A DNA stretch of 64,000 bases from Taxawa tesnikishii (nom. ined.) (taxonomy: Eukaryota; Ascomycota; Dothideomycetes; Dothideales). The translations under genes were made by a program, and so were the position numbers. Of this stretch, positions 12,010-60,408 are shown one piece after another (within the stretch, counting starts at the first letter, position 1; the number at the start of each line of letters is the position of its first letter). The notes under the pieces are model-generated. The model was not told the origin of the DNA. It was given only the letters and a program-made list of their open reading frames with translations, and ran no database searches. Location: NCBI GenBank assembly GCA_030247885.1, contig JAPDRO010000004.1:186001-250000 (forward strand). Reading direction: 5' to 3'.

Positions 12010-12049
<40 letters not shown>

Positions 12050-12399
12050 ACGCTCATACACGTAGCCCCGACACACCCAAGGTGTTCGCACGAAGTGCTC
12101 GCGATCCATCGTGTCTTTTGAGAACCTCAAGTGCCAAAAGGACGAGCGCGTGAAAGTCCATGACAACAATGAGGACAAAGACAGCACTCAGACACCACAA
12201 GCTTCACGATTGAGGTTGGCAACATTTTAGTAGTGAAGGCCATCTTTGCCCGTCTGGAACACCTGGCAACCGAACGCCTGTTAAAGGAATGCCTGGGGCC
12301 CAACCCACCATCGCCGTTCCGAGATGGTGGATATAAATCATCCAGGCAGGACTATCTTACATCGAGTAGGGACCTCGCGACGCCTTGTTCAACAACATA
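11362..12399. other. Intergenic, no gene seen
   Basis: Between the MFS transporter promoter and the tRNA pair I see only short overlapping frames and an AT microsatellite. No domain, tRNA or repeat family is recognisable. Confidence 0.5.
12015..12045. repeat. AT dinucleotide microsatellite
   Basis: About 15 perfect AT units, read directly, in intergenic DNA upstream of tRNA-Glu. Confidence 0.95.
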
Positions 12400-12505
12400 T
12401 CCGTCATGGTCTAGTGGCTAGGATTTACCGCTCTCATGTTGAGGTTCCGATACGGGTCCTCTAACAGAAAGCCGGTAAGGCCGGGGTTCAATTCCCCGTG
12501 ACGGA
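12400..12505 (+). tRNA. tRNA-Glu (CTC) with 35-nt anticodon-loop intron
   Basis: The cloverleaf reads cleanly. The acceptor TCCGTCA pairs perfectly with TGACGGA, the anticodon stem is TACCG/CGGTA and the T-stem is CGGGG/CCCCG around TTCAATT. The anticodon CTC is followed by A37, then an intron of about 35 nt (12437-12471, boundary ambiguous by sequence) at the canonical 37/38 position. The A box (TGGTCTAGTGG) and B box (GGTTCAATTCC) are intact, and a TTTTT terminator lies at 12508-12512. It decodes GAG. It faces the tRNA-Leu gene 272 bp downstream. Confidence 0.95.
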
Positions 12506-12507
12506 AG

Positions 12508-12512: not shown

Positions 12513-12777
12513 TGATCAGTACTGGCCCGTTGCCTTTACGGACCGCAGGCTACGAGTCCTTGGGCGTTTCTTTTTCCCATGCTGGGTGGGCTGTTGCGGG
12601 CATGGGAGATCAAAGCCGCAGATTCGGCGTTCCAGCTTCGTTCGGACCGGAGAGCTGCCAGACCCACCTTGCAAAAATTGCCAAAGCCGAACTCTTGAGC
12701 GCAACGCCAACCGCCCGTCTTCAGCCATGCGGCACATCAACAAGAGAACGGACACCCTTGCGGGCATAAAAGCATGT

Positions 12778-12938
12778 TGACGAGGGTGGGACTCGAACCC
12801 ACGCTCCGAAGAACTAGTAAGTACCCTGATCAGAGCAGGTAGTTCGTACCTGAAACTAGCGCCATAACCACTGAAAGAATGTTAAAGAACGAACTGTGAG
12901 GACGAATGGTGAGTTGTGCTTACCTCGGCCACCTCGCC
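12778..12938 (-). tRNA. tRNA-Leu (CAG) split by an anticodon intron and a 53-nt D-loop insertion
   Basis: With two inserts removed, the minus strand gives a complete type II tRNA-Leu. The acceptor GGCGAGG pairs with CCTCGTC (one G-U), with A as discriminator. The D-arm is GCCGAG-TGGTTAT-GGC and the anticodon stem is CTAGT/ACTAG around TTCAGG. The long variable arm is TTC-TTCG-GAG with a UUCG loop, and the T-arm is GTGGG-TTCGAGT-CCCAC. Insert 1 (12820-12848, 29 nt) is the canonical 37/38 intron. Insert 2 (12871-12923, 53 nt) lies in the D-loop. It starts GTAAGC, has TTTAAC about 12 nt before the end and stops at TTTCAG, so it looks like a spliceosomal intron. It also interrupts the A box (TGGCCGAG|TGG). 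The B box GGTTCGAGTCC is perfect, and a TTTT terminator lies at 12768-12771 (minus). It is either a functional gene needing unusual splicing or a recently interrupted pseudogene. Confidence 0.85.
12871..12923 (-). other. mRNA-type intron-like insertion in the D-loop of tRNA-Leu
   Basis: This 53-nt segment has the donor GTAAGC, a TTAAC branch-like site and the acceptor TTTCAG. That length and signal set match the protein-gene introns around it. It is not at the 37/38 site used by nuclear tRNA introns. The boundary can slide by one G because both junctions carry a G. Its splicing route is unknown. Confidence 0.7.
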
Positions 12939-60317: not shown

Positions 60318-60408
60318 TCTCCGCTGCCTGGATCGAACAGGCGACCTTATGATATTCGGAACGCTTCCAATTACAGTCATACGCTACTTCCAGCTGAGCT
60401 AAGCGGAG
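60318..60408 (-). tRNA. tRNA-Tyr (GTA) with short intron
   Basis: The acceptor CTCCGCT pairs perfectly with AGCGGAG, with A as discriminator. The anticodon stem is TATGA/TCATA around CTGTAA, and an intron of about 17 nt follows position 37. The T-arm GCCTG-TTCGATC-CAGGC pairs fully. Eukaryotic tRNA-Tyr genes always carry such an intron. The D-arm is slightly unusual (GCTGGAAGTAGC in place of the common GGTAGAGC), leaving one weak pair. Pol III T5 follows. Confidence 0.93.

Follow-up and report, generated by a model that had tools for sequence, protein, structure and literature searches.

Can a nuclear tRNA gene carry an mRNA-type intron and still give rise to a usable tRNA? The question is raised by a tRNA-Leu(CAG) gene with a split D-loop in the window, by which we mean the whole stretch of 64,000 nucleotides that was analysed. 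A sequence-only reading of this locus had claimed that a 53-nt insert running GTAAGC...TTTAAC...TTTCAG interrupts the gene, that its removal restores a tRNA-Leu(CAG), and that an ordinary 37/38 intron, a B box and a Pol III terminator are present as well. All of these were found. The insert lies at 12923-12871 on the minus strand, ARAGORN calls a 108-nt tRNA-Leu(CAG) with a 29-nt anticodon-loop intron once the insert has been cut out, and the gene has the B box GGTTCGAGTCC and a T4 run at 12771-12768. The features of the gene are listed here in window coordinates, together with a neighbouring tRNA gene used for comparison and two paralogs from elsewhere in the genome.

12778..12938, minus strand: tRNA-Leu(CAG) gene, 161 nt with both introns; mature part 79 nt including the discriminator base
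12924..12938, minus strand: exon 1, acceptor 5' strand and start of the D arm, GGCGAGGTGGCCGAG
12871..12923, minus strand: mRNA-type D-loop intron, 53 nt, donor GTAAGC, acceptor TTTCAG; absent from L002 and L003
12881..12885, minus strand: branch-site-like TTAAC (within TTTAAC), its second A (12882) 11 nt before the last intron base
12849..12870, minus strand: exon 2a, remainder of the D arm, anticodon stem 5' strand, anticodon CAG (12852-12850) and G37
12820..12848, minus strand: ordinary 37/38 tRNA intron, 29 nt; length from ARAGORN, exact placement from our own reading
12778..12819, minus strand: exon 2b, anticodon stem 3' strand, variable region, T arm and acceptor 3' strand
12789..12799, minus strand: B box GGTTCGAGTCC, B-box pattern match C29:198789-198799
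12768..12771, minus strand: TTTT (T4), Pol III terminator-like
12400..12506, plus strand: neighbouring tRNA-Glu(CTC), comparison gene, with an ordinary anticodon-loop intron only
C33, match 1127853-1127951: L002, tRNA-Leu(CAG), uninterrupted
C23, match 952949-953043: L003, tRNA-Leu(CAG), uninterrupted

The split in the D-loop falls after GGCCGAG, which would place the insert between tRNA positions 15 and 16; this site and those given below follow tRNA numbering by our own reading, and some have equivalent registers. The insert had also been said to cut the A box. The A box is indeed interrupted, as it is in the other genes described below whose insert lies in the D arm, and the claim can be refined in that the first intron bases nearly rebuild it (TGGCCGAGGTA), judged against what we take to be the A box consensus. 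The uncut precursor, when folded, showed no clear cloverleaf (z = -1.76). Stretches resembling TATATATT occur upstream of some of the interrupted genes described below (L109, L116), with no clear one at the window gene. The upstream regions of the window gene (12970-12958, minus strand) and of a tRNA-Leu(CAA) gene, L115, have AAACGTCACGTGA in common, which is perhaps a common promoter element. The window also holds a tRNA-Tyr(GTA) with an ordinary anticodon-loop intron at 60318-60408 (minus strand).

The sequence-only reading had left the number of tRNA-Leu(CAG) genes to be counted. The genome to which the window belongs (G000; 29.4 Mb, 34 contigs) contains two further copies, L002 and L003, neither with the insert, and both read straight through GGCCGAGTGGTTATGGC at the insert site. 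The window gene and these two paralogs are identical at 79/79 mature positions, their differences being confined to the 37/38 intron, in which the window gene has diverged from L002 and L003. Given this identity and the empty sites, the insert is a clean and exact addition to an unchanged gene. A pseudogene test on the window gene revealed no mutations in the mature part and no broken stems. On paper the gene is nevertheless dispensable, since two uninterrupted Leu(CAG) genes exist.

The window gene is one of eight intact-looking tRNA genes with mRNA-type inserts, nine inserts in total. The others are a Leu(CAA), two Leu(AAG), one of them with two inserts, an Arg(CCT), two Ala(TGC) and an Ile(AAT), and the eight are spread over six contigs (C3, C8, C29, C31, C32, C33). 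The finding is larger than first noted: a set of spliceosomal-type introns in tRNA genes and not the oddity of one gene. The nine inserts are as follows.

Window gene, Leu(CAG): site 15/16, 53 nt, donor GTAAGC
L115, Leu(CAA), C31: site 15/16, 53 nt, donor GCAAGA (GC-AG ends)
L059, Leu(AAG): site 12/13, 57 nt, donor GTAAGT
L116, Leu(AAG), C31, first insert (L116a): site 12/13, D arm, 55 nt, donor GTGAGT
L116, Leu(AAG), C31, second insert (L116b): 3' side of the variable arm, 56 nt, donor GTAAGT
L109, Arg(CCT): site 17/18, 54 nt, donor GTAAGT
L130, Ala(TGC): site 19/20, 54 nt, donor GTACGT
L134, Ala(TGC): site 19/20, 53 nt, donor GTTCGT
L135, Ile(AAT): site 18/19, 54 nt, donor GTGCGT

An anticodon-loop intron is also present in 7/8 of these genes and is absent from Ile(AAT); the Leu(AAG) gene on C31 (L116 with L117) therefore has three introns: an mRNA-type one in each of the D arm and the variable arm, plus the one at 37/38. 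The mature parts of both Leu(AAG) genes and of Ile(AAT) (74/74) are those of an uninterrupted paralog, and Leu(CAA) differs from its uninterrupted paralog at a single base in the variable region. Downstream of L059, no TTTT lies within 90 nt. A decayed copy of tRNA-Arg(CCT), L133 (C12:566095-566260), has a broken T arm and an intron site that is still visible; its insert fails the splice-signal test given below. Two more loci were left out of the interrupted count. L099 (with L129, on C11) is a solo tRNA-like 3' part consisting of a T arm, the acceptor strand TTCACGAC, as in L100, and T6, with no recognisable 5' half in the ~300 nt upstream, and L131 is a T-arm-like stretch not accepted by ARAGORN.

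All nine inserts are 53-57 nt long and have U2-type ends, GT-AG in eight and GC-AG in one (L115), with G as the fifth base in 9/9. In every one of them the A of a branch-like motif lies 10-13 nt ahead of the insert end; the motif reads TTAAC in the window insert as against CTAAC, CTGAC or CTAAT in the other eight. When these signals were cast as a test (G[TC]NNG at the start, AG at the end and a YT[AGT]AY whose A falls 10-13 nt from the end), which was set post hoc, it was passed by 9/9 tRNA inserts and by 6/400,000 letter shuffles of the window insert. The insert lengths coincide with an excess of mRNA intron-like stretches of 50-59 nt in the window, where a motif scan without gene models found 18 (the window insert included) versus 4.1 in shuffles; over all lengths the scan found 38 versus 26.7 expected. 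In their cores the tRNA inserts are mostly unrelated to each other.

The number of such genes has to be read against how they were found. Three B-box patterns were used to seek tRNA genes and gave 90, 60 and 58 matches versus 66, 45 and 42 for reversed controls, and since the controls give nearly as many, most matches are due to chance. Among the 90 matches of the first pattern, 64 were inspected, 6 lie on organelle-like contigs and 20 were left uninspected, 6 of these 20 being full-length matches to the Rfam tRNA model. By hand count the 64 hold 21 recognisable tRNA genes, five of which are interrupted (the window gene, L059, L116, L115 and L109), or 4/20 if the window gene, which triggered the search, is set aside. 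For the second pattern 30/60 loci were scanned, a T arm and a matching acceptor being required, and none was recognised with an insert. From the third pattern four of 58 matches were fetched (L130, L131, L132, L134). L130 and L134 proved to be the interrupted Ala(TGC) genes, L134 having been chosen through a search with L130, and at least six further matches fall in uninterrupted tRNA genes in L003, L010, L011, L012 and L075 and in one non-tRNA stretch of the window. A search for a split-D-arm motif gave 14 matches versus 18 in the reversed control, so that its matches are mostly chance; the one clear case, Ile(AAT), was confirmed in L135. Altogether 38 nuclear tRNA genes were examined in full; eight contain such an insert, and the other 30, which correspond to 31 ARAGORN calls less L130, do not. 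The ratio 8/38 is not a frequency, because the eight were enriched by targeted searches, and 5/21 is the fairer figure. ARAGORN gives an anticodon-loop intron to 25 of the 30 uninterrupted genes, one of which (2 nt, L003) looks misplaced. Patterns for interrupted Leu-CAG, Leu-AAG, Ala and Ile tRNAs each had 0 matches in a viral contig collection, as did the Leu-AAG and Ala patterns in a genome contig collection, which says little given that the collections are not fungal.

Genes of this kind expose a blind spot in annotation. With default settings ARAGORN finds nothing at the window locus, and with long introns allowed it makes only a false Ala(CGC) call on the uncut gene. Rfam gives the uncut locus only a sub-threshold tmRNA match (15.3 bits versus a cut-off of 47); tRNA and tmRNA form one Rfam clan, of which the best match alone is displayed. 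On eight uncut sequences, namely seven interrupted genes and L133, ARAGORN made three calls, all with a wrong anticodon, and on the same eight after cutting it called seven, L133 being the one not called. The names given to the cut Leu(CAG), Arg(CCT) and both Ala(TGC) genes agree with our own reading; the two cut Leu(AAG) genes were named (taa) and the cut Leu(CAA) SeC(tca), one base off, as were their uninterrupted paralogs. Ile(AAT) in L135 gave nothing uncut and Ile(aat) cut. All eight uncut interrupted genes were thus missed or assigned a wrong anticodon, and such genes may therefore be missing from other annotations. One further ARAGORN name was rejected: L100, an uninterrupted gene that it calls Ala(TGC), is read by us as Ser(TGA) from its GTCGTGA acceptor, long variable arm and CTTGAA loop, and the call appears, in our reading, to have a misplaced intron.

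If one interrupted gene has uninterrupted paralogs, are there tRNAs for which no such paralog was found? A search with the Ala(TGC) 3' part gives two genes, L130 and L134, both interrupted at the same site, and the only other match for Arg(CCT) is the decayed L133. A genome search for an uninterrupted D arm with anticodon-stem strand of either tRNA, at up to 3 mismatches, found none, its four matches being the interrupted L130 and three whose last letters differ from both stems; a more diverged or unassembled gene would be missed at this setting. Since the searches turned up no uninterrupted gene for either tRNA, the interrupted class as a whole is unlikely to be dead. The introns of L130 and L134 are related but diverged (0/500 shuffles as good in the core), so that the Ala intron probably predates the separation of the two copies. 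In the acceptor stem, pair 7:66 is G:C in L130 and A:T in L134, a paired change such as would be expected if the spliced tRNA were under selection.

Other Pol III genes of the same genome are relevant as well. Three U6 snRNA genes were found (L064, L065, L066; 47/1430 candidates scored), and 3/3 have an mRNA-type intron. It sits at one site, TGCACT|GTAAGC...CAG|AAGGATG, is 51-56 nt long, has diverged between the copies, and has a branch-like motif at 11-12 nt in all three. The three genes match the model over positions 1-66 only, because each is split by its intron. Had there been an intact U6 gene, it should have outscored these three and appeared in the list; U6 therefore most likely must be spliced here, which points to contact between Pol III transcripts and the spliceosome in this organism. 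For 5S rRNA, each of the 47 matches listed (47/1720 candidates scored) covers model positions 1 to 120, with no intron seen; these being uninterrupted, not all Pol III gene classes are affected. Within the same 47 listed matches, the 5S rRNA genes are dispersed over many contigs.

The proposal of the sequence-only reading, a spliceosomal intron in a Pol III tRNA gene, is strongly supported by similar signals in eight tRNA genes at six sites, and is also backed by the mRNA-type introns of the three U6 genes and by the lack of any uninterrupted Ala(TGC) or Arg(CCT) gene among those found. Judging from these sequence features, the tRNA-Leu(CAG) gene of the window is very probably a functioning nuclear gene whose D-loop insert is a spliceosomal intron of the U2 type; at least nine in total, in eight genes, would be of this sort, and the mRNA-type inserts as a group are most likely spliceosomal introns, presumably spliced, in working tRNA genes. 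Several points stand against this: the two uninterrupted paralogs of the window gene, the TTAAC branch motif, the GC donor of L115 and the lack of TTTT at L059. The paralogs in particular would suit a recent inactivation of the window copy, in which an intron-like piece landed in the gene and the two uninterrupted copies suffice. A recent insertion would leave the exons unmutated, and copies can decay, as L133, an interrupted Arg(CCT) copy, demonstrates. When the idea was first raised, several intact Leu(CAG) genes together with random mutations in this copy were named as the marks of a pseudogene; the two uninterrupted genes exist, but the mature part is without any change. Random inserts, moreover, would not carry a matched donor, branch and acceptor, as 9/9 do, and between the two Ala genes an acceptor-stem pair has changed on both sides. 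We therefore regard inactivation as improbable. An assembly artefact is scarcely credible: the inserts lie on six contigs, differ in sequence and have exact splice signals, which assembly errors do not make.

Two other origins can be weighed against a spliceosomal one. An introner, that is, a mobile intron family that copied itself into tRNA genes, was the alternative offered by the sequence-only reading, and several genes are indeed affected. A few pairs of inserts also score above most shuffles in their cores (Arg_L109/L116a 1/500, L116a/L116b 5/500 and L116a/window 10/500), as is expected when 45 pairs are compared. However, 0/500 was reached in the core only by the two Ala introns, which share a site, and the window insert, searched with its flanks and the only one of the nine so queried, gives a single genome match at E up to 10. 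An introner origin thus found no support, and we consider it quite unlikely. Still less likely is that the inserts are tRNA-endonuclease introns at unusual positions with a bulge-helix-bulge (BHB) structure, as in the red alga Cyanidioschyzon, where PMC3978253 describes ectopic D-loop introns of this kind. In one alternative register the window insert reaches 3/4 inner and 2/3 outer pairs, whereas full inner and outer helices are present in 0/9 inserts under a simplified rule of our own that admits equivalent registers within 3 nt. In addition, BHB introns need neither GT..AG ends nor a branch motif, and 9/9 inserts have both.

If the inserts are spliceosomal introns, Pol III would make a Leu(CAG) precursor with two introns, U1 and U2 would recognise the short D-loop intron, and the spliceosome would remove its 53 nt in the nucleus, allowing the D arm and cloverleaf to form. 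Thereafter RNase P, RNase Z and the tRNA endonuclease, all dependent on a folded tRNA body, would act; the 37/38 intron would be cut, a ligase would join the anticodon halves, and the mature tRNAs of the interrupted genes would be used. Pol III transcripts are without the cap and CTD, which help mRNA splicing. By analogy, U6 indicates that this lack can be overcome. This fungus probably uses its mRNA splicing machine for part of its tRNA. It is also rather likely that the spliceosome is directly needed for translation here, in that the only Ala(TGC) and Arg(CCT) genes found, and part of the Leu and Ile genes, would require spliceosomal splicing and mostly then tRNA splicing, two unrelated systems on one transcript.

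Introns of mRNA type have precedents in small structured RNAs. Fungal U6 snRNA genes with such introns are known, as in S. pombe (Tani and Ohshima 1989; Canzler et al. 2016; both as cited in PMC5832005), and here too a short GT..AG intron interrupts a Pol III gene whose product is a small structured RNA. Unlike U6, which is itself a spliceosomal RNA, the host here is a tRNA, mostly with a second intron for a different enzyme system. Fungal U3 snoRNA introns likewise lie in a small structured RNA, have canonical spliceosomal signals and vary in presence between paralogs, again with a host other than tRNA; PMC5832005 names U3 and U6 as the only small structured RNAs for which frequent interruption is known to date. 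With regard to position, the Cyanidioschyzon merolae and Guillardia theta nucleomorph genes treated in PMC3978253 are comparable, having introns in the D-loop or otherwise outside 37/38, sometimes several per gene. According to that paper, the ectopic introns of C. merolae sit at BHB motifs and many tRNA introns of the G. theta nucleomorph form no defined BHB, whereas the inserts described here have GT..AG ends, a branch motif and no full BHB. From ordinary nuclear 37/38 tRNA introns they differ in position, length class and sequence signals. Spliceosomal introns in fungal nuclear rDNA, reported for Mycoarachis inversa (PMC11782384), are a further case in which mRNA-type introns occur outside the genes that Pol II transcribes, although those lie in Pol I-made rRNA and these in tRNA.

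Within the open-access literature, as represented by titles and the starts of abstracts and with most subscription papers outside its range, no report of spliceosomal introns in tRNA genes was found, and they are unmentioned in the available parts of PMC5832005, PMC4090602, PMC13149111, PMC11782384, PMC4033280, PMC3978253, PMC6461891 and PMC4494063. If true, such introns would link pre-mRNA splicing to tRNA supply, would extend the spliceosomal splicing of Pol III transcripts beyond U6, and would offer natural material for testing how uncapped transcripts are recognised by the spliceosome.

Some minor observations were made on the same assembly. Contigs C25 (80 kb), C26 and C28 are organelle-like; on C25 the tRNA genes of the two strands occupy mirrored positions, and C26 and C28 resemble alternative versions of a second organelle stretch, whose tRNA sequences differ from those of C25. 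In the window, a TA microsatellite at 12012-12069 gives weak, sub-threshold matches to microRNA models. The CTR9 protein of the window matches PDB chain 6af0_A, which we take to be from a filamentous ascomycete, at 675 bits, versus at most 203 for the other Ctr9 chains listed.
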